Source: Paraburkholderia heleia NBRC 101817
Lineage (GTDB): Bacteria > Pseudomonadota > Gammaproteobacteria > Burkholderiales > Burkholderiaceae
Length of the DNA stretch: 64,000 bases
Direction: 5' to 3'
NCBI RefSeq assembly: GCF_000739775.1
Contig: NZ_BBJH01000012.1
Span: 1-64,000 of the forward strand
The position numbers and the translations under genes are program-made. The notes under the pieces are model-generated. The model made no database searches. It was not told the DNA's origin and saw only the letters and a list, made by a program, of their open reading frames with translations. Positions within the stretch are counted from its first letter, which is position 1, and each line of letters begins with the position of its first letter. This document shows positions 4,705 through 39,318 of the stretch, piece by piece.

Positions 4705-5393
4705 CTGGCTCTCCCACATGAGGTTAGCTCCGATCAACCGGCGACCCGACAGATGGCACGCGCAAACCCGCCACCCCAATGTCGTCGATGATCACCGCCC
4801 CTGACGGACGAAACGCCCTGGATCCGTTTGTTAGAAATGCCTGAACGTGACCGTGATAATCGTGTTCAGGAGATGAAGGAAGACATGGAACGTAATGAGC
4901 GAGTTCCAATCTGTAGACGTACGACCCATAGTACGCCCACGGGACTAGCAGACCAGCACGGCCCCTTTCCGCTACCAGACCGAAATTCTCAGACGCCTTG
5001 ATCGCAGGCTTCCATTCCCGACGACAGTCGGCCAGAAGCAGCTATCAATTCCGGCAAGAACTATCGCCTGGACGGTGGTGTTTTCAGTTTTCACCCGGAA
5101 ATTCCATTTTAGGTCATGCCGTGACATATTGCCAAGGCAAACTGGTCAATAGATTGAACGAGATGCAGATCGCCGGAAGCTTGACGGACAGGATACGGGG
5201 CGACTGCTTCATTCAGACGACTTCCGCGGCTCCCGATGCTATGCAGCAGGCCGACTCGCGCAATCCTCGAAGAACGCTGGACTCGCAGTAAGGGCTGTGG
5301 CGGCGGAAAAGGGAGAAAGTCCGAATCGGCTGTGCCGCTCCCCGTTACCGGGATAGCTATTTCTCACATGACTCACGCGTCCCCCGCGCCCGC
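4705..5393. other. Intergenic region upstream of the Liv-type operon
   Basis: No convincing gene is seen. The short frames here lack ribosome sites and recognisable protein character. The region should hold the promoter of the minus-strand importer operon. It also contains one copy of the GTCA-N5-TGAC-like palindrome at 5113-5125. Confidence 0.5.
5113..5125. promoter_or_regulatory. Putative MarR-type operator copy (site A)
   Basis: The sequence GTCATGCCGTGAC matches GTCAC-N3-GTGAC with one mismatch in the left arm. The core is identical to the site at 19767-19779, including the central bases. It lies about 410 bases upstream of the Liv-type operon start. Its assignment to the MarR protein at 14.6 kb is inference. 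Confidence 0.4.
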
Positions 5394-5711
5394 CTACAGC
5401 CCCCAGATAATGTCTGCGTTCAACCTCTCAGCTTCGCGCATCATCTGAAGTAAAGGCCACGCGCGCTGGGATAGCTCGTTGAGCGGCATGCGGTTGCCAC
5501 CCCCCGAATGCGGCAGTTGGTCGAGCGACCGTTCTGCCTGCTCCACCGAACTGATTTCGCTTTCGAGACGCGTGATCGCATCGTGTAGTTCGTCATGCAC
5601 GATGGCGCCTCGGGCATCGAGACGTCGGCCAATCAGGCCAAGCAGATATTCCGCCTGATCCCTGAGCAACACTACCTCAGGCGCAGCTCGTGATTGAAAG
5701 GTAACCATCAT
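5394..5711 (-). CDS. DUF1840 domain-containing protein
   Basis: This is a small 105-residue protein of the DUF1840 family, which is common in betaproteobacteria and has no known function. The N-terminus MMVTFQSRAAPEVVLLRDQAE and the C-terminal block with QRAWPLLQMMREAE...DIIWGL match the family at both ends. The start at 5711 (or the adjacent ATG at 5708) has a strong GGAGG site a few bases upstream; longer versions of the frame have no such site. It reads away from ackA, and a large palindrome lies between the two genes. No signal peptide or membrane segment is visible, so a cytoplasmic location is likely. Confidence 0.88.
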   Translation of the reverse strand: MMVTFQSRAAPEVVLLRDQAEYLLGLIGRRLDARGAIVHDELHDAITRLESEISSVEQAERSLDQLPHSGGGNRMPLNELSQRAWPLLQMMREAERLNADIIWGL

Positions 5712-5843
5712 TATTACCTCCTCATTTAATTCGCAACGCGCGACGTTCTCGGCTCGCCGAGCACTTTCGGTATGGATCCGGGGTGCGTGCGCCGCAGGTT
5801 CAGGATGCCACGAAATACAAATCCGGATTTCCGATTTCCCACA

Positions 5844-5874
5844 CCCATATATATCACATAGTGACATATATGGG
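5844..5874. promoter_or_regulatory. 31-bp AT-rich imperfect palindrome containing a MarR-type operator core (site B)
   Basis: The arms CCCATATAT and ATATATGGG flank the core TCACATAGTGA, so almost the whole 31 bases are self-complementary. The 13-base core at 5853-5865 (ATCACATAGTGAC) differs by one base from the site directly upstream of the MarR gene. It is about 140 bases upstream of the DUF1840 start and 430 upstream of ackA, so it could control either gene. Confidence 0.55.
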
Positions 5875-6305
5875 TATATTTGACCAGCAGGATGCGCTTT
5901 CCCACCAGGCTGAAGAGAAGCGGCGACGCGTTGGTCAGGAAGTCGCCGACCGCCGCAGGGAGTTGCGCCGTGGCGCACCATGTTATCCGCCTGCCCCCGG
6001 ATGCTGATCCGCTACGCAAGGGCCGAACGGCCAGCCGGTCATTTGCTCTGGCGGCAGGTACAGGAAACATGAAGGTCTTTCATGCCATGGCTATTGAGAC
6101 ATGCGCTGGTCCTTACGATCGGCGGCGTCCATTGCGGTAATGCCGAACGTTCGCCTTGCGCGCGAGAGCGACTGCTGCGCGATGCCGATCGCCCCGACGT
6201 CCCGTGTCCGATCGCCTTGACAAGTCGTGCATACTGGATGATTGTGTGGCAAGGCTCGTGCGAAGTTGCGCTGCTGGAGGCCTGTCTCGCAACGTGGGCA
6301 ATTGC
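5875..6305. other. Upstream region of ackA
   Basis: No separate gene is supported. Frames that overlap the ackA start lack a ribosome site and are probably noise. A promoter for ackA is expected here, but no unambiguous -35/-10 pair was picked out. Confidence 0.4.
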
Positions 6306-7481
6306 ATGAACGATGTAATCCTCGTTTTGAATGCCGGCTCGTCAAGCATCAAGTTCTCTTTCTTTTCGGGGCACCCTCGGCCGGAACGGACAGACGCCCT
6401 GTGCCACGGCGAATGCGAGGGAATCGGCGAGCGCTTGCACTTTACGGCGAAAACGCGCGGCGGTGCAGTACTCGCTGACGAGTACCCGGAAGGCATCACT
6501 CATACGGACGCGCTGTCCGAACTGCTCCGCTGGATCGGGCGCCATTTTCGCGATCATCGGCTGGTCGCCACGGGACATCGAGTCGTCCACGGTGGATTAC
6601 ACCATATCTCGCCGGTTCGCATCGACGCGGCGATCGTCGAAGAACTTCGCCGGCTTATTCCACTCGCACCGTTGCATCAGCCTCACTGCCTTGCCGCAAT
6701 CGTGGCCGTGCTGAAGCTCAACCCCCAAGTGCCGCAGTTTGCATGCTTCGATACGGCGTTTCATTGCACCCAGCCCGAGGTGGCGGCTGCCTTTGCGTTA
6801 CCGAGGGGCCTGAGCGCAGCAGGGATCCGGCGATATGGATTTCACGGCCTGTCGTACGAATACATTGCGAGCGTCCTCCCTGACGTCGTCGGGCATGCCG
6901 TCGCCCATCTTGGCAGCGGCGCAAGCCTGTGTGCACTTCACGAGCGCAGAAGCGTGGCGACCACGATGGGCTTCTCGACGCTGGACGGTTTGCCGATGAG
7001 TTGCCGATGCGGCAATCTCGATCCAGGCGTGGTGTTATACCTGATCGAGGAAAAAGGCATGACCGCGGACGAGGTCAGCGATCTTCTTTATCATGGCTCA
7101 GGCCTGCTCGGCGTTTCCGGCATAAGCGGTGATATGCGGGTCCTTCTGGCCAGCGATCGTCCGTCGGCCATCCAGGCCATCGCGCTCTTTGTCTATCGTA
7201 TCAAGTGCGAGCTCGGTTCGATGGCGGTGGCCCTCGGCGGTATTGACGCCCTGGTCTTCACGGCGGGGATCGGTGAACACGCCAGCGAAATTCGGCGGCT
7301 TGTTTGCGAGGGCATGGCGTGGCTGGGTCTGGACCTTGACCACAGCGCCAACGCAACAGGCGGGCCGCGCATCACGACACCGGGAAGCCGGATTTCGGCC
7401 TGGGTAATCCCGACGGATGAAGAGCTGATGATCGCCCGCCACGTCTGGACGGCTACCCGCTCTAATGCCACGAACGGTTGA
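6306..7481 (+). CDS. ackA: Acetate kinase
   Basis: Acetate kinase interconverts acetyl phosphate plus ADP with acetate plus ATP in the cytoplasm. The 391-residue protein starts MNDVILVLNAGSSSIK, the family's N-terminal signature. HRVVHGG near residue 90, the HxxCFDTAFH block, the RYGFHGLSY block and HLGSGAS are also present, and the C-terminal FTAGIGEH segment is intact. The ATG at 6306 is chosen because the signature begins there; 150 bases of open frame upstream carry no homology. No phosphotransacetylase gene is adjacent, so the partner enzyme must be encoded elsewhere. Acetate kinase genes in stress or low-oxygen clusters are common in Burkholderia relatives. Confidence 0.95.
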   Translation: MNDVILVLNAGSSSIKFSFFSGHPRPERTDALCHGECEGIGERLHFTAKTRGGAVLADEYPEGITHTDALSELLRWIGRHFRDHRLVATGHRVVHGGLHHISPVRIDAAIVEELRRLIPLAPLHQPHCLAAIVAVLKLNPQVPQFACFDTAFHCTQPEVAAAFALPRGLSAAGIRRYGFHGLSYEYIASVLPDVVGHAVAHLGSGASLCALHERRSVATTMGFSTLDGLPMSCRCGNLDPGVVLYLIEEKGMTADEVSDLLYHGSGLLGVSGISGDMRVLLASDRPSAIQAIALFVYRIKCELGSMAVALGGIDALVFTAGIGEHASEIRRLVCEGMAWLGLDLDHSANATGGPRITTPGSRISAWVIPTDEELMIARHVWTATRSNATNG

Positions 7482-7811
7482 CAGCAGCATTACGGGCGTA
7501 GCGTTGAAATCTCTCGCGCACGCCTTCAGGGTAGCTCGCCTTGCGACGACCCGACCGGATGGCGAGGCTACATGCAAACCCCGCCTCCCTCGCATTTTCA
7601 CATTCCCGTGCGTCACATCGTGCCCGTCCGGGCACGCGCCAGCCGCGCTGCATCTGTGTATCGCCGCCATCCTGCAGCCGCACCTGAATCAAACCGGTAT
7701 GGGTGTGATGGATGCATGCCGCATCCTTGCCGCGGCAGCACCCGGCCACTACCCTGCGAGATCAGGATGCAGCTCCTTGATGGACAGCGGGGCAGTACAG
7801 TGACTGGCGAA
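7482..7811. other. Intergenic, convergent gap between ackA and nhaA
   Basis: Convergent 3' ends of ackA and nhaA face each other here. Short frames on both strands overlap one another and show no family features. No obvious hairpin with a T-tract was found. Confidence 0.45.
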
Positions 7812-9170
7812 TCAGCACGCATTCCTGCGTAGCGTTCTCGCGTAGACCGCTCCCCAACCAAGGCCAAGGGCTCCGGCGACCAGCGAACCGGTTAGCACGC
7901 CGAGTTTCGCAGCACCAAGAGCACCTGGCTCTGCAAACGCGAGCATCGAAATAAAGATCGACATCGTAAAGCCGACGCCTGCAAGCAGAGCGACGAGCGC
8001 GATCCCGGACCACGTCACGCCGGTGGGCAAACGGCAAAGTCCCGATTTCACCAGCAACCAGCAGACAGTCACTACGCCAAGCGGTTTGCCCAATACGAGC
8101 GCCACGGCCACCCCGGCAAACACGCGCAGAAACTCTGGATGCGTCAGATCAATACCACCCAAAGTCACCCCGGCATTGGCAAGTGCGAAGAGCGGCATGA
8201 TGCCGTAGGCTACCCACGGATGCAGCGCCCACTGTACCCGCAACACCGGCGCAAGCAGCTGGCGCTGCGCCAGACGCAGTTTCTGCATTGGTCTCGCGAG
8301 GCGATCGAGGTCGCTACCAGGATCGGCATCACTGCTGGTCACGTCGCCCGCCGCGCGGGCCAGCTCAATCAAGGCATTCTCCCGCCTGCGCCCCGGCATC
8401 ACAGGTGTGAGGAGCCCGAGCACGACACCTGCCAGCGTCGGATGGGCGCCACTCACGTAAAAGCCGAACCAGATGATTGCGCCGGGAACAACGTACGGCT
8501 GCGCCGCGCCAATACCCAGCCGTTGCATGACGAGGATCAGCACGATGCCGGCCGCGGCGATAACAAACCCCACATAGTCGAGACCCGAGGAGTAGAAAAT
8601 CGCGATGATAAGTACCGCGATGATGTCGTCGACGATCGCAAGGGTCAGCAGGAAAATGCGTACATTGCCGGGAATCGATCGGCCGAGCAGCGCCAGCACG
8701 CCAACGGCGAAGGCGATGTCAGTCGCCGTGGGAACCGCCCACCCTGCAACCATCGACGACGAGCGGTTCACAACGCAATAGAAGAGCGCCGGTGCCGCAA
8801 CTCCACCAATTGCAGCTGCAAGAGGCAACAGCGCCTGCCTGATTTCACTCAGAGATCCTTCATGAAGTTCCCGGCGGATCTCCATGCCAACCACAAGGAA
8901 AAACACCGTCATCAACGCATCGTTGATCCAGAAATGCAGCGGTTGTCTGAAGGCATGTTCGCCTAATCCGAAGACGACTGGTGCATCCCAGAGCGCGTGA
9001 TACGACTCGCCAAGCGGCGAGTTCGCCCAGACCAGCGCAGTGACAGCCGCGACAAGCAACATGATGCCGCTTGCCGCCTCGATGTGCAGGAAATGCTCAA
9101 GCGCTGTGAAGGCCCTGCGGGCAATGCGTTCAACTGGAGGAAGGTTCAGAGGAGTCAGGTTTCGTTGCAT
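7812..9170 (-). CDS. nhaA: Na+/H+ antiporter NhaA
   Basis: This inner-membrane antiporter exports Na+ in exchange for H+, supporting pH and sodium homeostasis. The protein is 452 residues from the ATG at 9170; a GTG at 9242 is possible but its ribosome site would be too close. The family hallmarks are present: [13 protein letters not shown] and [18 protein letters not shown] carry the ion-binding aspartates equivalent to E. coli D133, D163 and D164. About eleven or twelve hydrophobic helices are seen. The loop around residues 270-310 is longer than in E. coli NhaA. It lies next to an MscS channel gene, in keeping with an osmotic and ionic stress setting. Confidence 0.93.
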
Positions 9171-9316
9171 CGGCGCGGGTCGTCCTGCGTGGCGGCCCGA
9201 CCAGCGCAGATGACCTGTCTCGCCGCCCAATGCAGCTAACACCCTTTGTGAATTCTACATGAGACTCGCCACAGTCCTGGCGGTCCATCTGCGGTCTGCC
9301 GTTCTTTTGATCGCCA

Positions 9317-10402
9317 CTAGTGGGCGCCGAGCGGCTCAACAGTTTCCCTTTCACCGGTTGGCTGCGCGACGTAGATCGTCCTCGAAGGCAGGGCGAAGCC
9401 CAGATCCAGGTCGCGGATAAGCTCCATGACGCCCAGGTTGATCTTCTGCTGGATATCCATGTAAAGGTTATAACCGGGATCGGTGACGTAATACACGACC
9501 TCGAATGTCAGGTCGCTCGCCCCGAATCCCTTGAAGTGGGCACGATCAAAGCGTGTCGCGCCGGCCGCTTCAATTACCGCCCTCACCCGCTCCGGCACCC
9601 GGCGCAACTGCTCGGGTGTCGCGTCATATCTCAGCCCGAATGTGAAGACAATGCGGCGCTCGGTCATGCGCTTGTAGTTGTTAATCACGTTCTTGAGCAA
9701 TGCCGTATTGCTGCAGATAATCTCCTGGCCGCTGATGCTCCGGATACGGGTGGTTTTCAGGCCGATATATTCGACGCTGCCAGCGACATCACCGAAGGTG
9801 ATGAAATCGCCAATCTCGAAGGGCTTGTCCAGTCCGATTGCCAGCGACGCGAAAAGATCGCTGAGGATGCTCTGCACGGCCAGCGCCACCGCGACGCCAC
9901 CCACTCCCAGACTCGCAACAAAGGCGGTGATATTTACGCCCATATTGGCGAGCACGGCCAGCAACAGTATCGACCACAGGACGGCACGCAACACCCACGC
10001 CGTCATCGTTGTCAGCACGGGATTCTGCGCGAGCGTCGCTCTGACCCGATGGTGAGTCCACAGCCCGACGCTCCGGTTAAGCCATAACGCGACCTGGATG
10101 CCGACAACAAGGAACCAAAGCTTGTCGATCCGGCTGCCCCAGATTTCCGGAAGCGCAAGAAATTGGGTTCCAGCCAGCGTGGCCGCGGCGAGGAGCAGAA
10201 ACGCCCGGGTGCTCCGCAGCACGTCCACGAGCGCGTCGTCGACCCACGTTGACGTTCGGCTCGACCATGCATCGAGTCTTTTGACTGCTACCCTGATCGT
10301 CGTACTCAGAACCAGATAGATAACGGCCGTGGCAGCCAGCGCATAACACCAGCGGCTCGCAGGTATGCCGAGAAAGAAATTGAGATCCAGCCAGCTTTTC
10401 AT
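9317..10402 (-). CDS. MscS-family mechanosensitive ion channel
   Basis: This is a small-conductance mechanosensitive channel protein of 361 residues, expected in the inner membrane where it releases solutes on hypo-osmotic shock. Four N-terminal hydrophobic segments are followed by the pore helix VASLGVGGVAVALAVQ and the junction DLFASLAIGLDKPFEIGDFI, the classic MscS TM3 and beta-domain start. The C-terminal alpha/beta domain is present. It is longer than E. coli MscS (286 residues) because of extra N-terminal helices, as in YbdG/YnaI-type members. Transcription runs toward nhaA with a 146-base gap. Confidence 0.92.
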   Translation of the reverse strand: MKSWLDLNFFLGIPASRWCYALAATAVIYLVLSTTIRVAVKRLDAWSSRTSTWVDDALVDVLRSTRAFLLLAAATLAGTQFLALPEIWGSRIDKLWFLVVGIQVALWLNRSVGLWTHHRVRATLAQNPVLTTMTAWVLRAVLWSILLLAVLANMGVNITAFVASLGVGGVAVALAVQSILSDLFASLAIGLDKPFEIGDFITFGDVAGSVEYIGLKTTRIRSISGQEIICSNTALLKNVINNYKRMTERRIVFTFGLRYDATPEQLRRVPERVRAVIEAAGATRFDRAHFKGFGASDLTFEVVYYVTDPGYNLYMDIQQKINLGVMELIRDLDLGFALPSRTIYVAQPTGERETVEPLGAH

Positions 10403-10906
10403 TGTTTTCCCCGTTATTTTCTACAATGAACGCACCACTCATATCGGCGACGCAGACAGGTTGGTCGGCGATCGTGATCAAAGGTTCCGTGAAATGGGCG
10501 CCGCGATCATCACGCAGAAGTCCCCGCACCTGCGTTTCGTGCCGGGAGAAGGCAAAGCTTCAGGTCGAGTCGCTGCGTCGAGGTCGCAATTTTGACGCCC
10601 GCGACTTTTCACCCGGAAATATCTACTGGCCCCGTCGTTTCCCATTCACTATTTTGGCTTGCTACTCACGCACGCTGGCGCGGCAGTGATTGCATGTGAT
10701 GCCGGCTGAACTGCCAGCCGTTGCTACACCTGCGCTGTATGTCGGTTCCCAGGTCAGCGCAAACTGATGTCAACTCTCATCGTTCGCGAGCGAGGTCAGT
10801 GCACTCATTCAGGATATGAGTGCCGGACGTTCCTTTCCGCGGCTTTTCCCTTCCCTGGGCGACTACAGGCAATAACCGCCACGTATTCGTAGTGCACGCT
10901 CAAAAT
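10403..10906. other. Intergenic region upstream of the MscS gene
   Basis: No supported gene. It should contain the promoter of the minus-strand MscS gene. The MarR-type palindrome at 10907-10919 marks the start of the next gene's control region. Confidence 0.45.
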
Positions 10907-10919
10907 GTCACATCGTGAA
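10907..10919. promoter_or_regulatory. Putative MarR-type operator copy (site C)
   Basis: GTCACATCGTGAA matches GTCAC-N3-GTGAC except for the last base. It is preceded by CAAAAT, exactly as at the site at 19767. It lies 123 bases upstream of the secreted-protein gene at 11042. Confidence 0.45.
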
Positions 10920-11041
10920 ATAATTCCGATTATTCACGCATGTAAACGTATAATTCTTGCGCACCGCTGCCGAACTTGCCTGAAACCGCCCGAAACAAGG
11001 TGAGTGTATGGCAGCGCTTTTCCGACCTGGCAGGATTTACC

Positions 11042-11368
11042 ATGAAGCGAGCCTTCCTTATTGCCCTGACGGGCGCCTTTTCCGTAACTGCTGGCGCGCA
11101 CATCTGCAGCCAGGGCGCACCGGTGAAAATCGAGGGTGATGCGCCCGGTGCTATCAGCTACGACATATATAGCCAGCTTTACCCACTTACGCCTGTGAAG
11201 CTCGCGAGATTTTCCATGGCCCAGCAGGTGAAAATGATTCCCGATGGCACGAAGACGTGCACGATTTCTGACGACGGTGTCGATGATCCTGGCCCGGTCC
11301 TTGTCAACGGCCCACGCGGACAGATGAATTACTGGATCTCGGGCAGTTATGTCAAGCCAGCAAGCTAG
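11042..11368 (+). CDS. Small secreted protein of unknown function
   Basis: This 108-residue protein is not recognised. MKRAFLIALTGAFSVTAGA is a clear Sec signal peptide with a probable AGA cleavage site, leaving a mature protein of about 88 residues. Two cysteines (about residues 23 and 77) could form a disulfide in the periplasm. The ATG at 11042 is preferred over an upstream GTG-type extension because the signal peptide begins there. A MarR-type palindrome lies 123 bases upstream. The next gene is an FtsI-like PBP on the same strand, so co-expression is possible. No lipobox or membrane segment is seen beyond the signal. Confidence 0.65.
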   Translation: MKRAFLIALTGAFSVTAGAHICSQGAPVKIEGDAPGAISYDIYSQLYPLTPVKLARFSMAQQVKMIPDGTKTCTISDDGVDDPGPVLVNGPRGQMNYWISGSYVKPAS

Positions 11369-11508
11369 GCCCCCTGGCAATACTCGCCTGCGTGGACTCG
11401 CTCGAGGTTGTGCGAACCTGCTTGAGTGGACGAGTTCACGTACCAGCAGCGCCGGGTAGACCAGTACTGCCCGGTGGCAGGAACAGTTTCAGGAGACATG
11501 CCTCGCCG

Positions 11509-13239
11509 ATGTCAGGAAACCGAAGATATTCAGGCCTTTCCCAACATGCAGTGAAGTCCGGCGCATTCCAGACTGGGCGCTCCAGGTTCGCCGGCCTTGT
11601 ATTCGCCAGTGCGTTTCTCGCCTTGATACTAAGGGCCGCGTGGGTCCAATGCGTCAAGGATGACTTTTATCAGCGACAGGGGGAAATCCGCCAGGTAAGC
11701 GATCGCGACACACTCGCATCCCGTGGGCATATTTTCGACCGCAACGGGCGCGTCCTGGCCATGAATCTGCCAACGCGTACGGTCTGGCTGGATGCGTCGG
11801 CAACGGGGGTGGCCGCCTCCAGCTCCCAGATTCAGGCTCTGGCCCGTATCCTTCAGATTGCGCCCGCCGTCGTCGAACATGCGTACGCTTCGCAGCGCCA
11901 GTTCGTCTATCTCGCGCGCCAGATCCCAACTGACGTTGCTGAGCGCGCCATGCGCCTCAATGTGCCCGGCGTATTCGAGCAGAAGGACTATCGTCGCTTC
12001 TATCCGGAGTCGTCGGTCACGGCGAACGTCGTCGGCTTCACGGGCATCGACGGCCACGGCCAGGAAGGGATCGAATTTGCGGCAGAACGACAGCTGCGCG
12101 GCATAAATGGCTGGCGCCGGACACTGCACGACGCCAGGGGAGAAATCATCGCTAACCTGGCACAATCTGCGCCCCGCAAAGGCATGGATCTCCGGCTCTC
12201 GCTTGACCTGCGGGTGCAGTACGCCGCATATCGTGCATTGCAGGATGCGGTCACGCACTCCGGTGCACGATCGGGCTCGGCCATCGTGCTCGACGCGCAT
12301 ACAGGTGAAATCCTCGCCATGGCAAACTGGCCCAGCTTCGATCCAAACAGCCGGTTGCGCAGCAGCGGTCTCGCCATGCGCAACCGTGCCGTCACGGACG
12401 TATTCGAACCGGGGTCCGTGATGAAGCCCATCACGATCGCTCTTGCCCTTCAGGAGCAGCGCATCACGCCAAATTCCGTTGTAACAACAGATGATGGAAG
12501 GCTGCGTCTGGACGGCGTGACCATCCATGACGACGCAGACTTCGGCACGCTAACCGTCGCGGGCGTCATCGAGAAGTCGAGTAACGTTGGCACTACGAAG
12601 ATCGCGATGATGATGCCGGCCGAAGACATGTGGCACAATTTCCGCAAGGTCGGACTGGGTAGAGCACCGCACGCCGGCCTGCCCGGTGAAGCGGCAGGCA
12701 ACGTGCGCGCGTGGAAAGGATGGCGCCGCATTGAACAGGCGACGATGTCCTACGGATACGGGCTTTCCGCGTCTCTACTTCAACTTGCGCAGGCCTACAC
12801 GGCATTCGCCAACGACGGAGTATTTGTGCCCGCGACGATACACTGGCAGCCCGCGCCACCCTCCGGTCGCCGCGTCTATTCCGTGCGCACCGCACGTGAA
12901 GTCCGGTCCATGATGGAACAGGTCGTCAGCGCCGCCGGAACTGCGCCGCAGGCAGCGGTTACGGGCTATACCGTCGCGGGAAAGACGGGAACCGCTTACC
13001 GCTGGACCCGGAGCGGGTACGATCATGGCCAGTACCGCGCCTCCTTCGTCGGCATCATACCGGCCCGGGCACCGCGAGTGATCATTGCCGTTTCCATCGA
13101 CCGGCCCCGAAAGGGATCCCATTTTGGTGGAGCAGTCGCCGGACCAGCCTTTGTCAGCATTGCGTCGCAAACGATGCGATTGCTCAATGTGCCGCCCGAC
13201 AAGCCATACGCCAGCGTGACGACAAAGCCCGCTACCTGA
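11509..13239 (+). CDS. Class B penicillin-binding protein, FtsI/PBP3-like transpeptidase
   Basis: This peptidoglycan transpeptidase of the FtsI/PBP2b type is 576 residues from the ATG at 11509. A single N-terminal membrane anchor (about residues 27-44) precedes the PBP dimerisation domain, which opens with RGHIFDRNGRVLAMN. The penicillin-binding domain carries all three catalytic motifs: SVMK with Ser303 and Lys306, SSN at 357-359 and KTGT at 492-495. It stands alone, away from a dcw cluster, so it is probably a paralogue of the essential division FtsI, perhaps for a growth condition such as stationary phase or acid. A conditional role is inference. The start is uncertain because GTG codons further upstream are also in frame. 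Confidence 0.9.
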   Translation: MSGNRRYSGLSQHAVKSGAFQTGRSRFAGLVFASAFLALILRAAWVQCVKDDFYQRQGEIRQVSDRDTLASRGHIFDRNGRVLAMNLPTRTVWLDASATGVAASSSQIQALARILQIAPAVVEHAYASQRQFVYLARQIPTDVAERAMRLNVPGVFEQKDYRRFYPESSVTANVVGFTGIDGHGQEGIEFAAERQLRGINGWRRTLHDARGEIIANLAQSAPRKGMDLRLSLDLRVQYAAYRALQDAVTHSGARSGSAIVLDAHTGEILAMANWPSFDPNSRLRSSGLAMRNRAVTDVFEPGSVMKPITIALALQEQRITPNSVVTTDDGRLRLDGVTIHDDADFGTLTVAGVIEKSSNVGTTKIAMMMPAEDMWHNFRKVGLGRAPHAGLPGEAAGNVRAWKGWRRIEQATMSYGYGLSASLLQLAQAYTAFANDGVFVPATIHWQPAPPSGRRVYSVRTAREVRSMMEQVVSAAGTAPQAAVTGYTVAGKTGTAYRWTRSGYDHGQYRASFVGIIPARAPRVIIAVSIDRPRKGSHFGGAVAGPAFVSIASQTMRLLNVPPDKPYASVTTKPAT

Positions 13240-13373
13240 GCGCTGTACCAGATCCGCGAGATTCAGGGCCCCGGTCCCGGGCAGGACCGGAAGGGGTGGA
13301 ATGAAGGGCTGGCGAGACGGGATTTGCCGGCTCATTTGCCGGCGTGCTTTCGCTCACTGCGGGTCATCGTCCG

Positions 13374-13760
13374 CTAATCCTTGTCGACGCTGTGCTCATC
13401 AAGCCGGGCGCAGCGCTTCAGATCCGCCAGGTACCTTTCGGGTGCGACGCGACTCTCGAAGTACTCGACCATCGTACCGCCATGCTGGGGGCGTAACAGC
13501 GCACCAAATGGGACTCCCTTGAAATAGGAGCGTGCACTGATACGCACAACACCGTGAGATGCGCTGAAGTGCGGCTTACGCGCGGATTGCTGCCAGTACG
13601 ACCATATGCATGCTGCAACCATCGACTTTGGTGTTCGCGAATGCATGCTAAATGCCGGTGCCAGGGCGAAAACCCCGCCGCCACGCGTGCATGCAACAAG
13701 CAGGAGGCCGCCAAACAGCAGCACGCAGCAGTCGATGCGTTTCAAGTTCCCTCCAGCCAT
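13374..13760 (-). CDS. Putative lipoprotein of unknown function
   Basis: This 128-residue frame begins MAGGNLKRIDCCVLLFGGLL and continues to LVACTRGGG. LVAC is a good lipobox with the acylated cysteine near residue 24. The rest of the sequence has no recognised domain; it includes a basic, aromatic-rich middle (CIWSYWQQSARKPHF). The signal peptide is the main evidence that this is a real gene. It lies downstream of, and convergent with, the FtsI-like gene. No strong ribosome site is seen at the chosen ATG. Confidence 0.5.
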   Translation of the reverse strand: MAGGNLKRIDCCVLLFGGLLLVACTRGGGVFALAPAFSMHSRTPKSMVAACIWSYWQQSARKPHFSASHGVVRISARSYFKGVPFGALLRPQHGGTMVEYFESRVAPERYLADLKRCARLDEHSVDKD

Positions 13761-14202
13761 CTGTGTTTGCCTTGTTAGATCCCGTGGGGACACATCGTCC
13801 AGCACGCGACTAACCCGCTATCCGCCATGACCGTCTGACTCGACAAGCTGGACGGCGAGCCTCCTGTCCCCCGGCTTACTGGACAATCGCCTCATGCCTG
13901 TAAGGCCTCAGGCGCAACTGTCTCGCGTATGCGAATCCCCGACCAAGGCCGATCATACCGGCACGCAGCGCCGCGAGTTCCGCCCAGCACCAGTTGTCGC
14001 TTGACGCGAGGAGGCAAACACCACGCACCAGAATCCCGCTCACCGAAAACACGACGGGCGGCTCGCCCCGTACGAAAGTCAACACCATTCCAACGATCGT
14101 GCAAAATATCGCTGGTCGGCCCCTCTGGCGTTTGCGAATGCGTACGTTGGCCGAAGGGTGCTGGCAGCCAGCGGCAACACGATACCCCGGACGCACGTGG
14201 CG
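13761..14202. other. Region without a convincing gene
   Basis: Overlapping frames of about 100 codons exist on both strands, but none shows a signal peptide, domain or ribosome site that favours one of them. It may hold the promoter of the lipoprotein gene at 13760. Confidence 0.35.
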
Positions 14203-14496
14203 TCACGGTGCGTGCCACCGAAAGCGTTGACCACGCAGCTTCGACGACTCGACCTCGAACTGCCCCTGTCCGCTCGGGAGCACAGGAAAAAACCTGCCGC
14301 TGCCTGCGCGGGCCTGCCCACCGGGCACGAACACTGACTGACCAATAGCAGGCGTGCGCTGCGGTTCCTCCGACAGATTCCGCGCGAAGCAGGACCGACA
14401 GTGCGCAGCGGTGCCTCCGGCAACGGACGTTTCGTCAGCGTAACCGGAACTTGCGGCAGACATCAGGATCAACCCGAGCAATGCGATGCGTCCCAT
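14203..14496 (-). CDS. Possible small secreted protein
   Basis: This 97-residue frame begins MGRIALLGLILMSAASSGYA, a plausible Sec signal peptide with cleavage after GYA. The remainder contains CRSC and no known domain. No ribosome site is evident. A perfect 15-bp hairpin lies just upstream of its start. Divergent transcription from the MarR gene would be consistent with a shared control region. It is reported because of the signal-like N-terminus only. Confidence 0.35.
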   Translation of the reverse strand: MGRIALLGLILMSAASSGYADETSVAGGTAAHCRSCFARNLSEEPQRTPAIGQSVFVPGGQARAGSGRFFPVLPSGQGQFEVESSKLRGQRFRWHAP

Positions 14497-14509
14497 ATAT
14501 CGAGGCCTG

Positions 14510-14542
14510 GCGGGTCACGGCACGAACCGTGCCGTGACCCGC
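14510..14542. repeat. Perfect 15-bp inverted repeat with AAC loop
   Basis: GCGGGTCACGGCACG at 14510-14524 is exactly complementary to CGTGCCGTGACCCGC at 14528-14542 across a three-base loop. No T-tract follows on either strand, so it is not a standard terminator. It carries GTCAC and GTGAC in its arms and sits 54 bases upstream of the MarR-linked operator. Confidence 0.8.
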
Positions 14543-14595
14543 GGCTCCCTTACAATGGCGTTTTGCACGATGACTCAAATGCGCCTATATTTTAT

Positions 14596-14608
14596 GTCAC
14601 ATAGTGAC
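14596..14608. promoter_or_regulatory. MarR-type operator upstream of the MarR gene (site D)
   Basis: GTCACATAGTGAC is a perfect inverted repeat (GTCAC/GTGAC around ATA). It is 27-39 bases upstream of the MarR start, where promoter or autoregulatory operators normally lie. It defines the consensus used for the other sites in this window. Confidence 0.6.
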
Positions 14609-14634
14609 CTTTTCCCATCTGAAACCCGAAAAAC

Positions 14635-15066
14635 ATGGACGGGCCTATGCCACCGAAAACCCGGAAAGTGACTGAAAAGGTGACGAGAGCCGACCTGGAA
14701 GAGCTTTCGGAGTTCCGGTATCGCCTTCGGCGATTTTTGCGGGTGTCAGAGGAAATCGCGCACGCGGAGGGCGTGACGCCGCTGCAGTACATGCTGATGC
14801 TGCATACGCGCGCCTTTCCCGATCGCGACTGGGCTACCGTGGGCGAGATCGCGGAGCGCCTGCAGGCGTCTTCGCATGGCACGGCGGCGCTCGTCACGCG
14901 CTGCGAGACGGCCGGCCTGGTACTCCGTGTGACCAGCGCCCATGACCGCCGCGAGGTCCAGGTGCACCTGACGGAGGAAGGCGAACGCTGCCTGCTGAGA
15001 CTCGCCGCGCTACACAAGTCGGAGGTGCAGTCTTTCGGCTGGGCCTTCAGGGAGGAAAAAGAATAG
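14635..15066 (+). CDS. MarR-family transcriptional regulator
   Basis: This 143-residue DNA-binding protein has the MarR winged-helix layout: an N-terminal helix (LSEFRYRLRRFLRVSEEIA), the helix-turn-helix region TVGEIAERLQASSHGTAALV, and the wing SAHDRREVQVHLTEEGE with the conserved D-x-R. It would act as a dimer on a palindrome, and one lies directly upstream at 14596-14608. An internal ATG at 14647 is an alternative start. The APC permease and ClC genes follow on the same strand, so it probably controls them and itself. The ligand is unknown. Confidence 0.9.
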   Translation: MDGPMPPKTRKVTEKVTRADLEELSEFRYRLRRFLRVSEEIAHAEGVTPLQYMLMLHTRAFPDRDWATVGEIAERLQASSHGTAALVTRCETAGLVLRVTSAHDRREVQVHLTEEGERCLLRLAALHKSEVQSFGWAFREEKE

Positions 15067-15209
15067 CGCCGCGATGGCCGGGCCCGCAAGGTCCTCACGG
15101 CAAAGGCGGGAGTCCGCATTTTGGGTTCATGCCTTCAATCAGGGGAAGGCAACAAACGGTACTAGAGCAAAGCAAACGGTCAGGGGCCATTGAATGCAAG
15201 GAGTTCGGC

Positions 15210-16811
15210 ATGAGCACGTCCTCAAGCCTGACCCTCGAAGGCAAGCTCCGGCGCGATGCCGGAATCGTAGGGCTATTGTTTGCCAGCACGACCAGCATGA
15301 TTGGCTCGGGCTGGCTGTTCGGCGCATACCACGCTTCGCGCATCGCCGGTCCGTTGAGCATCGGCAGCTGGATCATTGGCGCGGTCATCATCATGCTGAT
15401 TGCGCTGTGTTTCGCGGAACTCGCCGCCCTCTTCCCGCGAAGCGGCGCGCTGGTGCACATGAGCCATGCCAGCCACGGTGAAGGACTGGGTCAGCTGTGG
15501 TGCTGGCTCCTCTTCCTGGCCTATGTGCCCGTTCCGGCAGTCGAGGCGGAGGCAATCGTCACCTACGCCAACAACTATCTTCCATGGTTCATCCGTCCCG
15601 GCACTTCGGGGCTCCTCACGCTCACGGGTTTCGTCACGTGCGCGGCACTCCTTGGCATCACGGCCTTGCTGAACCTGATGGTGGTGCGCTGGCTGCTTAA
15701 CGTCAACTCGACCATCACCTGGTGGAAGATACTGGTGCCGCTCGTCACGATCGTCGCGCTGATGACGGCAAGCACACACTGGGACGTGATGCACGCATCG
15801 CCAGACAGCTACAGCCTTTCGGGAATGTTCACGGCGTTGCCCGCTGCCGGGATCGTGTTCAGCTACCTGGGCTTTCGCACGGCGATTGACCTGGGCGGTG
15901 AATCCGCGAACCCGCATCGGACGATTCCTCTTGCGGTGATCGGCGCGGTCGTCCTTGCGGCCATTATCTATATCCTGCTTCAGGTTGCGTTCATCATGGC
16001 GCTCTCGCCTGGCGACCTCGCGCACGGCTGGTCACACATGAGCTTCAAGGGTGAAATGGGTCCGTTCGCCGGTCTCGCCGCAACACTGGGGCTCGGCTGG
16101 ATGGCCACGCTACTCTATATCGACGCTTATGTGTCGCCCGGCGGAACGGGCCTGATGTATGTCACCGGCGGCTCACGTGTGCTCTTTGCGGCTGGTGAGA
16201 TGAATGCGGGCCCGCAGGCGCTTACCCGCCTGAACCGCTTCAGGATTCCGTGGGTAGCCGTGCTGGTCATGTGGGTGGTCGGTGTGCTCTTCCTGCTGCC
16301 GTTTCCAGCTTGGCAGCAAATGGTCAGCTATATCACGTCGGTGACGGTCCTCACTTACGGCCTTGGACCCATCGCGCTCATCGTGCTGCGACGTAACCTG
16401 CCCGATCTCAGGCGCCCCTTCCGGATGCGGGGTGCAGGTGTCGTCGCGCCGCTCGCCTTCATCTGCAGCAACCTCATCATCTACTGGACCGGATTCAGGA
16501 CAAACAATTTCCTCTTTTCGCTGCTCGCGATCGGCTTCGTCCTCTATGCGCTTCACTATCACTTCGTTGCGCGGCGCTCCGCTCACGATTTCGGCTGGCG
16601 CCACATCGCCTGGCTGCTTCCCTGGTTTGGTGGGCTGTGGCTGCTTTCGTGGCTCGGGGGAATTGACGGTGGGCGCGGGTTGCTCAGCTTCGGCTGGGAC
16701 ATTCTCGTGGTTTCCCTCTGGAGCGTGATAGTGCTTTTGCTCGCGCTTCGTTCATCACTGGACAGCAGCGAAACATCGGCCATGATGGCCCGGATGGACA
16801 GCACCAGCTAG
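15210..16811 (+). CDS. APC-superfamily amino acid permease
   Basis: This 533-residue inner-membrane transporter has about twelve to fourteen helices and fits AA_permease_2. The first helix carries ASTTSMIGSGWLFGAYH, the family's G-S/A-G substrate-binding break, and FAELAALFPRSGA matches helix 3. The start at 15210 has an AAGGAG ribosome site six bases upstream. It sits between the MarR regulator and a ClC transporter gene and is 35 bases from the latter. Some relatives are amino acid or amine exchangers; the substrate cannot be told here, and no decarboxylase gene is adjacent. Confidence 0.9.
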   Translation: MSTSSSLTLEGKLRRDAGIVGLLFASTTSMIGSGWLFGAYHASRIAGPLSIGSWIIGAVIIMLIALCFAELAALFPRSGALVHMSHASHGEGLGQLWCWLLFLAYVPVPAVEAEAIVTYANNYLPWFIRPGTSGLLTLTGFVTCAALLGITALLNLMVVRWLLNVNSTITWWKILVPLVTIVALMTASTHWDVMHASPDSYSLSGMFTALPAAGIVFSYLGFRTAIDLGGESANPHRTIPLAVIGAVVLAAIIYILLQVAFIMALSPGDLAHGWSHMSFKGEMGPFAGLAATLGLGWMATLLYIDAYVSPGGTGLMYVTGGSRVLFAAGEMNAGPQALTRLNRFRIPWVAVLVMWVVGVLFLLPFPAWQQMVSYITSVTVLTYGLGPIALIVLRRNLPDLRRPFRMRGAGVVAPLAFICSNLIIYWTGFRTNNFLFSLLAIGFVLYALHYHFVARRSAHDFGWRHIAWLLPWFGGLWLLSWLGGIDGGRGLLSFGWDILVVSLWSVIVLLLALRSSLDSSETSAMMARMDSTS

Positions 16812-16846
16812 AACCTAAACGCGGCAACTGCCCACACAAGGAGCGC

Positions 16847-18805
16847 ATGGCAATGGACCACGACGGCGGATCAGACAACCCCGAACAGGCCGCCGCTCGC
16901 CAGGCCGTGCGCGCCGCACCCGTCCCGATGCCCGACGACGACGCACATCCTGTCAGTCTTTACCAGTTGTGCTTCCATGCGTTCCTGGTCGGCATTGTCA
17001 CGGGCCTGGGGGCGGTCGTATTTCGCGGTCTCATAGGGGGCGTCCACAACGCATTCTTCCTTGGCCACCTCTCCTTTTCATACGACGCGAGCCGGTTCAC
17101 GCCCGAAGCCCCGTGGGGAGCGTGGGTCATCCTCGTGCCCGTTGCGGGCAGCATCGTCGTGACCTGGCTTGTCAGCACCTTCGCACCGGAGGCGAAGGGT
17201 CACGGCGTGCCTGAAGTCATGGACGCGATCTATTTCAGGAGCGGGATCATCCGGCCGGTTGTCGCCATCGTGAAATCCCTTGCGTCCGCGTTCGCAATCG
17301 GCACGGGGGCCGCGGTCGGACGGGAAGGTCCGATCATCCAGATCGGTTCGGCACTCGGCTCGACACTCGGCCAGGCGATACCGATGGCGGTGGGCCAGCG
17401 CATCACGCTGGTGGCCGCGGGCGCCGGCGCCGGGATCGCCGCGACGTTCAACACGCCCATCGGCGGTGTCCTGTTCGCTACCGAACTGATGATGCCTGAG
17501 ATCAGCGTCAACACGTTTCTGCCCGTTGCGCTTGCGACCGGAACCGCCACATTCGTCGGACGGCTGTTTTTTGGTGGCGAACCTGCGTTTCTGGTGCCGG
17601 CACAACTGGGCGCGTTGCCAAACCAGCCGGGCAGCGCCCTCACGATGATGCTGTATGCGGTACTGGGCGTCGTGACCGGTGCTGCGGCAGCATTGCTGAT
17701 ACGCGCGTTGCACTGGACCGAAGACGGCTTTGAGCGTATCCCAGGTCGCTACGGGCGCCATGCGTTCGGTATGCTGCTCGTGGGCGTGCTGATGTACGGG
17801 CTGATGCGCCACGGGGGGCATTACTATGTATCGGGCGTGGGTTACGCGACGATTCAGGCAACGCTCTATGGACAGTTGCAGGGCGGCCTGTTTCTGCTGA
17901 TGCTCGCGCTCGCGAAAACAGTCGCCACTTCGGTCAGTCTTGGCTCGGGATCATCAGGGGGCGTCTTTTCGCCGTCTCTCTTCATCGGTGCGACACTTGG
18001 CGCTGCCCTCGCGTCAGCCTTCCAGTCCATGTTGCCCGGTGTTCCGGTCAGCGGACCGGCGTTCGCGATGGTGGGCATGGGTGCGATGGTTGGCGGCGGC
18101 ACCGGTGCGGCGATGACTGCCGTGGCGATGATCTTCGAGATGACACGGGACTATGACATTGTGCTCCCCATGATCATCGCCGTGGCGTTCAGTCTCGGTA
18201 CGCGTCGGCTGCTCTCACCAGAAAGCATCTACACCCTCAAGCTCGCGCGACGCGGACATAACATTCCCAATGCGCTGCATGCCAACATGTTTCTCGTGCA
18301 AAGCGCCAGACAGGTCATGGAAACCGACGTTCTGGTGCTCGACGCGGGCGTACCGTTCCGCGATCTGCTGCGCTCGCCCGACGATCCGGCATTTCGTCAC
18401 GTGGTTATCACCCTTGAGGGCAAAATCCACGGTGTACTTCGCATCAACACCGGGCTACGGCGCGCCGTAAGCCGGGACGACCCGTCGGTGACGCTTGGCA
18501 GGCTCGCGCAGCACAACTACATCGTCGTTGACGAGTCCGATGCCGCGTTCGACGTCATCGGCCAGCTACGGCAACGTCGTGCGACGATGGCAATCGTGAC
18601 CGCACGTGACGATTCGGGTTTGTTGCGCGTGAGCGGCGTCGTTGCGAAAGAGCACATTGCGGATGCTGTCGCCAGCAGCATCCGCATTTTCCCGACGCGC
18701 GCGACCGAGGGCCTTCGCCGGAAAACCGACGTCGACGGTGAATCGAGGCGTGAATCGACAGTGCAGACCACACGCAAGGAGGTCCGGCATGAATCTGAAA
18801 ACTGA
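16847..18805 (+). CDS. ClC-family chloride channel/antiporter with C-terminal CBS domains
   Basis: This 652-residue ClC protein has all three selectivity motifs: KGHGVPEV in place of GSGIP, GREGP with the gating glutamate, and GGVFSP. The glutamate suggests a gated channel or H+/Cl- exchanger. The last 180 residues (from about QVMETDVLVLDAG) form a CBS pair, a nucleotide-sensing regulatory module. A good ribosome site (AAGGAG) precedes the ATG. It is one of two ClC genes within 6 kb. The preceding APC permease gene resembles acid-resistance pairings of an amino acid exchanger with ClC. Its stop overlaps the next small gene. Confidence 0.93.
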   Translation: MAMDHDGGSDNPEQAAARQAVRAAPVPMPDDDAHPVSLYQLCFHAFLVGIVTGLGAVVFRGLIGGVHNAFFLGHLSFSYDASRFTPEAPWGAWVILVPVAGSIVVTWLVSTFAPEAKGHGVPEVMDAIYFRSGIIRPVVAIVKSLASAFAIGTGAAVGREGPIIQIGSALGSTLGQAIPMAVGQRITLVAAGAGAGIAATFNTPIGGVLFATELMMPEISVNTFLPVALATGTATFVGRLFFGGEPAFLVPAQLGALPNQPGSALTMMLYAVLGVVTGAAAALLIRALHWTEDGFERIPGRYGRHAFGMLLVGVLMYGLMRHGGHYYVSGVGYATIQATLYGQLQGGLFLLMLALAKTVATSVSLGSGSSGGVFSPSLFIGATLGAALASAFQSMLPGVPVSGPAFAMVGMGAMVGGGTGAAMTAVAMIFEMTRDYDIVLPMIIAVAFSLGTRRLLSPESIYTLKLARRGHNIPNALHANMFLVQSARQVMETDVLVLDAGVPFRDLLRSPDDPAFRHVVITLEGKIHGVLRINTGLRRAVSRDDPSVTLGRLAQHNYIVVDESDAAFDVIGQLRQRRATMAIVTARDDSGLLRVSGVVAKEHIADAVASSIRIFPTRATEGLRRKTDVDGESRRESTVQTTRKEVRHESEN

Positions 18806-19034
18806 ATGGGACACGCTGCGCAGGCGCATTGAAGAGGTGTTTCATCCGGCGTCGCATCACGAGTCTGGAGCCGACGGATCTGCGCAGGACGAGCGCGAGT
18901 GGGTCGTCATTTACCGGACCGCGACAGGCTTTTGCTGCATGTACAAGGGGCTGCCTGTTAACTTCGAGGACATGCTCGATGTCCAGATCTGGACAGAGGA
19001 AATGGACGTGCGCCCCTATTTCATGGGATTGTAA
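18789..19034 (+). CDS. Small conserved-looking hypothetical protein coupled to clc
   Basis: This 81-residue soluble protein is not recognised. It starts MNLKTEWDTLRRRIEEVFHP inside the end of the ClC gene, and an excellent AAGGAGG site lies seven bases upstream, so translation is coupled. The C-terminal half (EWVVIYRTATGFCCMYKGL) predicts a compact beta-rich fold, and it is acidic overall. No signal or membrane segment is seen. Its position suggests a cytosolic accessory to the ClC/APC operon. Confidence 0.7.
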   Translation: MNLKTEWDTLRRRIEEVFHPASHHESGADGSAQDEREWVVIYRTATGFCCMYKGLPVNFEDMLDVQIWTEEMDVRPYFMGL

Positions 19035-19066
19035 ATACCCGCCGTGCGCACCGCCAGGCCAACCGG

Positions 19067-19573
19067 CTACTGGCGATAGACCAGGTCGGCACGCCGGTTC
19101 TGGGCCCACGAGGCCTCATCGTGCCCCAGAGCGACCGGCTTCTCCTTGCCAAGGCTCACCGCTTCGAGCTGGGTGTCGGGCACACCGAGTGTCTCGAGTT
19201 CATGCAATACAGCCTCCGAGCGGCGCTGGCCAAGCGCAAGGTTGTACTCATCCGTGCCCCGCTCATCCGTGTTGCCCTGGATCAGCACATGCTGCGCCGG
19301 ATGGCTTCGCAGATAGTCAGCGTGCGCGTGCAGCAACTGCAGATAGTCGCCCTTGACCGTATAGCTATCGAAGTCAAAGTACACGCTGCGCTTCGCCAGT
19401 GGACTGTTCGGATTGTTGAGCTCGTCCATTGTCGAGGTCGATCCGGTGACCGGCTGCGAGGTGGCCGCGTTCATGTTCGCCATACCGGAAGATTCGGGCG
19501 CCTTCGTTGCCGAGTGACAGCCGGCCAGCAGCGCAAGCGACAGGATGGCGACGCATGATCGATTCAGGCTCAT
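19067..19573 (-). CDS. OmpA/Pal-family peptidoglycan-associated lipoprotein
   Basis: This 168-residue outer-membrane lipoprotein has a signal peptide ending in the lipobox LLAGC, with Cys19 acylated. A flexible Ser/Thr-rich linker follows, then an OmpA C-terminal domain (about residues 60-167). VYFDFDSYTVKGDY and GNTDERGTDEYNLALGQRRSEAV include the conserved Asp and Arg that bind diaminopimelate in peptidoglycan. It is Pal-like but stands outside a tol operon, so it is probably a paralogue that anchors the envelope. It converges with the ClC operon, and its promoter region faces the MarR-type palindrome at 19767. Confidence 0.9.
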   Translation of the reverse strand: MSLNRSCVAILSLALLAGCHSATKAPESSGMANMNAATSQPVTGSTSTMDELNNPNSPLAKRSVYFDFDSYTVKGDYLQLLHAHADYLRSHPAQHVLIQGNTDERGTDEYNLALGQRRSEAVLHELETLGVPDTQLEAVSLGKEKPVALGHDEASWAQNRRADLVYRQ

Positions 19574-19766
19574 GACGGGCTCCGGAACCAGGTTGAAGAG
19601 CGAAGCATCAATACTCGGATTTCGCGATCTAGTCTAGGCATAAATTCCCTGAACTGCCACCGTATTTCCCCGCAGCACCGGCGCGATGCCTCGAATAAAG
19701 TCAAGCAGCCTCCAGGCGCAATGGTTTAAGTTTCCCTTAAGTTTGCCGGGATAGATTTGCCAAAAT

Positions 19767-19779
19767 GTCATGCCGTGAC
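19767..19779. promoter_or_regulatory. Putative MarR-type operator copy (site E)
   Basis: GTCATGCCGTGAC is identical to site A at 5113 and shares the CAAAAT lead-in with site C at 10907. It lies between the divergent Pal-like gene (start 19573) and the MFS gene (start about 19940). Confidence 0.45.
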
Positions 19780-19899
19780 CTATCATTGCGACATGCTTTC
19801 AGTGAACGGGGGTGCGTGGTCCCATGACATTGTCGTGTCCTCAGCTTGCCGGATGGTAGCGTCCGGTTGCCGTCCGTGGCAGGAGCGGCAGCTCTTTTT

Positions 19900-19925
19900 A
19901 CCCAGCGCCCGCTGGGTTTTTTTTT
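19900..19925 (+). terminator. Intrinsic terminator upstream of the MFS gene
   Basis: ACCCAGCG and CGCTGGGT form an 8-bp stem with a two-base loop, followed by nine T residues (19917-19925). It can only stop plus-strand transcripts, yet no plus-strand gene ends nearby. It therefore ends either a short untranslated RNA or an attenuated leader for the MFS gene that starts 15 bases later. Confidence 0.8.
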
Positions 19926-19939
19926 GATCGTTCGTTTAT

Positions 19940-21142
19940 ATGCGCGCAACGCCCACCTCGCCCACTTCCCGCTCACGCATGAGCGCGCCCGAGTTGCGCG
20001 CGACCGTATCGCTCGCGGCGATCTTCGCGCTGCGCATGCTCGGTCTGTTCATGATCATGCCGGTGTTTTCCGTCTACGCGAAGACCGTTCCCGGTGGCGA
20101 CAACCTTCTGCTGGTCGGCATCGCGCTCGGCGCGTACGGCGTCACGCAGTCGCTTCTCTATATTTTCTACGGCTGGGTGTCGGACATGGTGGGCAGAAAG
20201 CCCGTCATCGCCGCCGGTCTCGTCATCTTCGCAATCGGCAGCTTCGTCGCGGCGGGCGCGCACGACATGGTGTGGATCATCGTCGGCCGCGTGATTCAGG
20301 GCATGGGCGCCGTGTCTTCGGCGGTGCTCGCGTTCATCGCCGACCTGACCGCCGAGGAGCACCGCACCAAGGCCATGGCGATGGTGGGCGGCTCGATCGG
20401 CATGTCGTTCGCCGTGGCCATCGTGGGCGCGCCGATCGTATTCCACTGGGTCGGCATGAGCGGCCTGTTCGCGCTGGTTGGCGTGTTCTCGATTCTCGCG
20501 GTGGGCGTGGTGATCTGGGTCGTGCCCGACGCGCCCCACAAGCCCGTGCACGTGCGCGCCCCGTTTGCCGAGGTGCTGCACAACGTGGAACTGCTGCGCC
20601 TGAACTTCGGCGTGCTGGTGCTGCACGCCACGCAAACGGCGCTCTTTCTCGTCGTGCCGCGCCTGCTCGTCGACGCGGGCCTGCCGGTCGCGTCGCACTG
20701 GAAGATCTATCTGCCGGTCATGGGCCTCGCGTTCGTCATGATGGTGCCGGCCATCATCGTCGCGGAGAAGCGGGGCAAGATGAAGCCGGTGCTCGTTTCT
20801 GCGATCGGTCTTATCCTGATCGGCCAGCTTTTGCTCGGCTCGCTCGCGCATACACTTGTCATCGTGTCGGCCGTGCTGTTCGTGTACTTCATGGGCTTCA
20901 ACATTCTGGAGGCGTCGCAGCCTTCGCTCGTCTCGAAGCTCGCGCCTGGCAACCGCAAGGGCGCGGCCACGGGCGTGTACAACACCACGCAGTCGATCGG
21001 GCTCGCGCTCGGCGGCGTGGTGGGCGGGTATCTGCTCAAACACGAGGGCGCGAGCGCCGTGTTCTACGCGTGCTCGGGGCTCGTCTTGTGCTGGCTCGTC
21101 ATCGCGCTCACCATGAAGGCGCCGCCGCTGCGCAGGGCCTGA
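19940..21142 (+). CDS. MFS transporter, YajR-like
   Basis: This 400-residue drug/metabolite transporter has twelve predicted helices. The MFS loop 2-3 signature GWVSDMVGRKPVI and the first-helix block ALRMLGLFMIMPVFSVYAKT are those of the YajR/Bcr-like group found widely in Burkholderia. The start may be 19940 or the ATG at 19979 (MSAPELRATVSL). Codon use is more strongly G/C-ending than in many neighbours. From memory, relatives sit beside uvrA and ssb in Burkholderia; those genes are absent here, so this may be a relocated or extra copy. A terminator hairpin abuts its start. Confidence 0.9.
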   Translation: MRATPTSPTSRSRMSAPELRATVSLAAIFALRMLGLFMIMPVFSVYAKTVPGGDNLLLVGIALGAYGVTQSLLYIFYGWVSDMVGRKPVIAAGLVIFAIGSFVAAGAHDMVWIIVGRVIQGMGAVSSAVLAFIADLTAEEHRTKAMAMVGGSIGMSFAVAIVGAPIVFHWVGMSGLFALVGVFSILAVGVVIWVVPDAPHKPVHVRAPFAEVLHNVELLRLNFGVLVLHATQTALFLVVPRLLVDAGLPVASHWKIYLPVMGLAFVMMVPAIIVAEKRGKMKPVLVSAIGLILIGQLLLGSLAHTLVIVSAVLFVYFMGFNILEASQPSLVSKLAPGNRKGAATGVYNTTQSIGLALGGVVGGYLLKHEGASAVFYACSGLVLCWLVIALTMKAPPLRRA

Positions 21143-26051: not shown

Positions 26052-26588
26052 CTGACGCTCGGCGCACCTCCGTGTACGGTACAAAGGCGCACCACCTGTT
26101 GCGCTCCGAATGCAGCAGACACGCGTGACCTGTCCGCGCTATACCGGCAGCCCTCCCGTAGCGGATGAACTTCCCGAAGCGGGAGCGGATCGGCCGGTCT
26201 CCAGCACGGGAAGGCAACCACTATAGCGCCCGCAATGCTTCATGAAGTTCTCGACGCCCGAAAGTAGCCATTGACGGCGGCGTGCGGCGCGGATTGTCGG
26301 TCGCTGGCCGTCCATGAATCCGCTGAGCGTCGGGAACGACATGGCCGGCTTGCCGAAGCGGATTCTGATTCGCTGCACACGGGGATCAATCACATCATGA
26401 CATAAACCGTGTTGTTGCCCATGGAAATCAACGGTCTTCATCATGATCCAGCACGTGTCGCCGCTGCACGCGATTGAGCGCGACATTTCGCCGCAATTGG
26501 TCTCACGGGCGGCCTGATGCTGTGCGCTGGGGTCCACCACTGCACTGTCATTCGCGTCGCTTCCAGCTGACTGCGTTACCATGACCGG
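26052..26588. other. Region upstream of the copper-handling genes
   Basis: A 147-codon minus-strand frame occupies most of it but has no recognisable domain, signal or ribosome site. A weak two-mismatch version of the MarR-type palindrome is at 26389-26401. Confidence 0.35.
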
Positions 26589-36487: not shown

Positions 36488-36511
36488 CGCTTCAGGAGCG
36501 AGTTGCAGATG

Positions 36512-39232: not shown

Positions 39233-39318
39233 GCATCCGCGAAAAGGCTGTCTATTGACGCGTTGCTTGTGTCCGTCATTTTACTCGCCCGCGAAGAAGC
39301 CCGATCAGTTGCAGCGAT

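Follow-up and report, generated by a model that had tools for sequence, protein, structure and literature searches.

A predicted operator and regulon for a MarR subfamily recurring beside ClC chloride transporters in Burkholderiales

In the stretch of Paraburkholderia heleia NBRC 101817 DNA analysed here (contig NZ_BBJH01000012.1, positions 1 to 64,000; hereafter the window), a short palindrome, GTCAC-N3-GTGAC, recurs between genes, with one copy lying ahead of a gene for a MarR-family regulator. A preliminary description of this locus proposed that the palindrome marks a MarR regulon linking DUF1840/ackA, a secreted protein, an APC/ClC operon, and genes for a Pal-like protein and an MFS transporter. 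This raises the question of whether a MarR protein uses the palindrome as its operator and, if so, which genes it would control.

Palindromes and promoter-like sequences in the window

A check of the sequence bore out the five palindromes of the preliminary description, A to E, together with their positions (Table 1), and placed all five between genes. The perfect copy, D, does lie just upstream of the MarR gene, the 13-bp cores of A and E are identical, and the bases CAAAAT are common to C and E. Allowing up to one mismatch, the bare pattern has nine matches in the window, compared with 2.4 expected, a count that none of 100 shuffled sequences reached. Four of these matches (3554, 7612, 17199 and 53020), which had not been described before, were rejected as noise, since they were not recovered by the 25-bp MarR-operator profile set out below. 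As almost half of its matches in the window are noise, counting the bare pattern was set aside as too weak a detector. The perfect 10-base core has seven copies in the 8.0-Mb genome, about the number predicted from base composition (the reversed pattern has one), and alone it is not clearly enriched genome-wide.

In a promoter consensus scan, D directly follows the -10 hexamer, TATATT, of the promoter-like sequence of marR. The two top-ranked promoter-like sequences found over 15.4 kb, one on the minus strand and one on the plus strand, have A and E, respectively, in the spacer between the hexamers. Sites in such positions suggest that a bound protein would repress by blocking polymerase.

Table 1. 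Coordinates of predicted sites, genes and other features in the window
Feature	Position	Strand	Sequence or detail	Basis
Operator A	5113..5125		core GTCATGCCGTGAC; intergenic; in spacer of minus-strand promoter-like sequence	profile 23.1
Operator B	5853..5865		core ATCACATAGTGAC; intergenic; upstream of DUF1840	profile 35.7
Operator C	10907..10919		core GTCACATCGTGAA; intergenic; upstream of small secreted protein	profile 26.8
Operator D	14596..14608		core GTCACATAGTGAC, perfect palindrome; directly after marR -10	profile 22.3
Operator E	19767..19779		core GTCATGCCGTGAC; intergenic; in promoter-like spacer	profile 19.3
Further operator-like site	25199..25211			profile 23.9
Further operator-like site	26389..26401			profile 21.9
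Promoter-like sequence with A in spacer	5135-5106	-		consensus scan, 10 of 12
Promoter-like sequence of marR	14562..14591	+	TTTGCA-N18-TATATT	consensus scan
Promoter-like sequence with E	19757..19786	+	TTGCCA-N18-TATCAT	consensus scan, 10 of 12
DUF1840 protein	5394..5711	-	start set at ATG behind AGGAGG	PF08895
Small protein	11042..11368	+	108 aa; signal-like N-terminus	from sequence
MarR-family regulator	14635..15066	+	143 aa	Pfam MarR_2, 43.8 bits (cut-off 27)
APC amino-acid permease	15129..16811	+	downstream of marR	Pfam AA_permease_2; order conserved
ClC chloride transporter	16847..18805	+	C-terminal extension	Pfam Voltage_CLC, 1.8e-82
Extra Pal-type lipoprotein	19067..19573	-	divergent from E	TIGR02802, 138.8 bits, above cut-off
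Structured RNA element	19793..19925	+	ends in intrinsic terminator	alignment, covariation
MFS transporter	19940..21142	+	conserved start 19979 possible	Pfam MFS_1
ClcA-type ClC transporter	21224..22534	+	constant gene downstream of E	Voltage_CLC, 2.7e-84

An AT-flanked motif and its probable MarR regulators

A set of 150 family genomes and a public genome collection supplied the MarR homologs, and a 25-bp profile was trained on 33 distinct operators of other homologs, with the window gene and its Paraburkholderia orthologs left out. The consensus upstream of the homologs is the 25-bp palindrome WWTATRTCAYnnnRTGAYATAWW. In the window, this independent profile recovers A to E together with two further sites, at 25199 and 26389, all scoring between 19 and 36, while the next-best position scores 5.5 and the top score across 30 Markov-generated windows is 15.4. 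No operator site was found in the next 20 kb of the contig beyond the window. Once orientation had been corrected, the motif was found within 220 bp upstream of 63 of the 82 MarR homologs, compared with 9 of 483 control windows, a somewhat optimistic figure because part of those homologs also trained the profile. A strict-pattern count that preceded any profile, and in which some minus-strand loci were in the wrong orientation, gave 45 of 82 against 4 of 406 controls.

A genome-wide scan, proposed as a check in the preliminary description, found the AT-flanked motif to be enriched: ATRTCAYN3RTGAYAT, with at most one mismatch, has 13 sites in 8.0 Mb, compared with none for the reversed control. 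Five of these are A to E, within 15 kb, and nine lie at MarR loci, with four at MarR paralogs (one each on contigs C48 and C47, two on C110). One further site lies between a universal stress protein (USP) gene and flhD (C89) and another over the tolB start codon (C90); C42:1215 and C77:6487, which are inside genes and have low profile scores, were dropped as chance matches. Genome-wide, the AT-flanked motif hardly occurs outside the loci of MarR paralogs and stress genes of these kinds. The sequence-only model R1 returned nearly the same list, with B as the strongest site in the genome among the candidates scored, the profile-model search scoring only part of its candidates. Across the family, a hand tally gave about 104 copies of the exact motif in 111 MarR-bearing genomes (150 genomes examined), compared with none for the control, and the same palindrome was found upstream of related MarR genes in Paraburkholderia, Burkholderia, Variovorax and further Burkholderiales.

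The window protein contains the MarR winged helix-turn-helix domain, with a Pfam MarR_2 match above cut-off. Judged by its sequence, it belongs to the MarR family outside every named subgroup; none of the named NCBIfam MarR equivalogs reaches its cut-off, the best being HpaR (28.1 bits, compared with 121.2). It resembles autoregulated MarR repressors of the MarR, OhrR, HpaR and EstR type in being a winged-helix protein of about 140 residues, with a palindrome at its own promoter and transport genes as neighbours. By sequence, one of the closest solved structures is that of OhrR (2pex, 1.2e-6), but the window protein, unlike OhrR, has no N-terminal sensing cysteine, its only cysteines being at positions 90 and 119, and Cys90 is about 89% conserved. 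No ohr gene is present among the genes annotated around the sites. In the literature searched, we found nothing describing for a MarR this operator sequence, the set of ClC, HPP, USP and Pal genes, or a MarR-ClC/HPP regulon.

At least four close MarR paralogs are encoded in the genome, with near-identical recognition helices, making cross-regulation likely, so that the window MarR need not be the only regulator. The proposed link between palindrome and MarR, drawn at first from the one adjacent site, is largely supported by the homolog counts, the synteny described below and the genome-wide sites. D is conserved upstream of MarR orthologs; two close orthologs (loci L034 and L035) have no operator directly before marR and one about 480 bp upstream. 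In most homologs whose recognition helix reads APN or APH, the canonical operator is missing, and the tie therefore stops short of the whole family. One half-site carries GTGC in five of the nine APN-helix homologs, a hint that the APN helix may co-vary with a GTGC half-site.

Gene neighbourhoods and the predicted regulon

Across genomes, the MarR genes were found in three recurring arrangements: MarR-ClC in Variovorax; HPP-MarR-ClC in Burkholderia, in Paraburkholderia and on contig C110 of the same genome; and MarR-APC-ClC-Pal-[E]-MFS-ClcA, the order seen in the window. In most of these, MarR, HPP and the E promoter each have an operator ahead of them. The gene content makes ClC chloride transport the main theme of the predicted regulon, joined by HPP, USP, APC and Pal genes. 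Of the five sites, four (B, C, D and E) reappear at the orthologous genes of other species, and A does not. In the closest relative (G112), D and E are kept in a stretch of 89% nucleotide identity, and a separate ClC gene has an extra operator about 50 bp ahead of it. Counterparts of B lie near DUF1840 in two loci (L045 and L047), and those of C before the same small protein in L034 and L035; family searches returned no match for this 108-aa protein. Among the genes that the preliminary description had linked, APC/ClC, Pal, the secreted protein and DUF1840, which B counterparts adjoin elsewhere, are kept in the predicted regulon. Of the others, ackA is a doubtful target, and the MFS gene is dispensable, being missing or degraded in several relatives.

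Several further observations were made in the course of this survey. The operator between flhD and the USP gene is present in two species (L108 9778, score 28.7; L152 3147, score 30.0), in an arrangement kept between the genome studied here (C89) and G112, which hints that the regulon has a motility or stress branch. The operator-like site at the tolB start codon (L109 9593, on C90) is identical in G112 and G104 of the same genus, a conservation that may reflect coding constraint, as the site overlaps the start codon. A second MarR-Pal-E-RNA module, without APC/ClC, lies at a contig end in the same genome (G000:C48:34102-35502; L106 16103-17503), its MarR and Pal being 92% and 95% identical to the window copies. 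Downstream in the window, ion-transport genes are numerous, with a Na+/H+ exchanger, a TauE/SafE exporter and bestrophin-like genes at 35288-41304. ORF 21277-23241 ('o654') was rejected as a gene, being a shadow frame of clcA.

The palindrome, with its computed sites conserved at orthologous positions, tied to MarR genes and overlapping promoter-like sequences, is very probably the operator for a MarR subfamily common in Burkholderiales. The most likely mechanism is an autorepressing regulon in which the window MarR or a paralog would act on these sites. In the mechanism we propose, a dimer of this MarR, or of a paralog, would bind the palindrome over core promoters, sitting just past the -10 of its own gene at D and in the -35/-10 spacer at A and E. 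Bound there, it would repress its own gene and a local regulon of ClC transporters, the amino-acid permease, the extra Pal lipoprotein, DUF1840 and the small secreted protein, until repression is released by a signal. We infer binding, a repressing instead of an activating role, and a signal connected with ion, pH or envelope stress.

It is possible, if rather doubtful, that the functional operators are just D, E and B, with A, C, 25199 and 26389 being relics of a rearranged region once richer in regulon genes. No conserved target gene was found in the compared loci for A, 25199 or 26389, the flanks of the shared stretch are not syntenic in G112, and the module has a partial second copy in the genome studied here, all of which would fit such a history. 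The independent profile, however, gives A a score of 23 and C one of 27, A lies within a good promoter-like sequence, and in P. tropica C is again found ahead of this small protein. We regard as improbable the suggestion that the palindromes belong to some other, unlinked regulator with the marR genes merely among its targets: some sites, at USP/flhD and tolB, do lack an adjoining MarR gene, but the motif is found mostly at loci of the MarR subfamily in many genera, stays with MarR when neighbouring genes change, and is variant or absent where the recognition helix is variant (APN). That short GC-rich palindromes simply happened to be noticed is hardly credible, since the roughly fourfold excess of the bare pattern and the unclear enrichment of the perfect core, which would suit chance, are outweighed by the independent profile, the genome-wide control and the conservation across species.

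A conserved RNA element ahead of clcA

Operator E is conserved in 15 aligned loci, and in all 15 a structured RNA element of 130-136 nt begins 26 nt after the start of E. The aligned element includes an invariant CAGCT block, a near-invariant ACGTCC block and an intrinsic terminator. In the internal helix and terminator, 24 cells have changed on both sides, compared with 9.2 in shuffles, and 94% of cells are paired, compared with at most 48% when the helices are slid. By eye, the invariant CAGCU could pair with the 3' arm of the terminator in most, though not all, sequences. All strong matches to the element come from genomes whose MarR ortholog is at least 73% identical; weak R2 matches elsewhere were rejected, mostly covering the terminator half only or having no operator upstream.

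The gene clcA follows in every locus long enough to show it; the MFS gene is intact in some loci, one has a degraded copy, and in others none was found. E is predicted to drive the RNA element first, with clcA as the constant downstream gene. A direct repeat, TTTAAGTTTCCCTTAAGTTT (19725-19744), lies upstream of E and is conserved in Paraburkholderia but not in Burkholderia; it resembles a response-regulator (PmrA/QseB-like) box.

The element may work as an sRNA, or it may form a terminated leader for clcA. A more specific and decidedly tentative proposal is that the E transcript is a terminated, riboswitch-like clcA leader responsive to a ligand or ion, or else a trans-acting sRNA under MarR control. 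Terminator-ended leaders and sRNAs offer a parallel, including one in the window itself: an nhaA-I RNA (9188-9244, minus strand; Rfam RF03057, 43.3 bits), the sole Rfam report there, lies where the gene for the NhaA antiporter (7812-9242) begins, and, like the E element, is a structured RNA before an ion transporter gene. The E element, about 130 nt and terminator-ended, differs from known leaders in having no Rfam match and in starting under a MarR-type operator.

Taken together, these analyses provide a predicted operator and a predicted regulon for an unnamed, widespread and little-studied MarR subfamily found repeatedly next to ClC chloride transporters in Paraburkholderia, Burkholderia and Variovorax, and they expose a conserved, previously unlisted RNA ahead of clcA. 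If this RNA is a riboswitch-like leader, chloride transport would be gated twice, at initiation through the MarR operator and at termination through the RNA.
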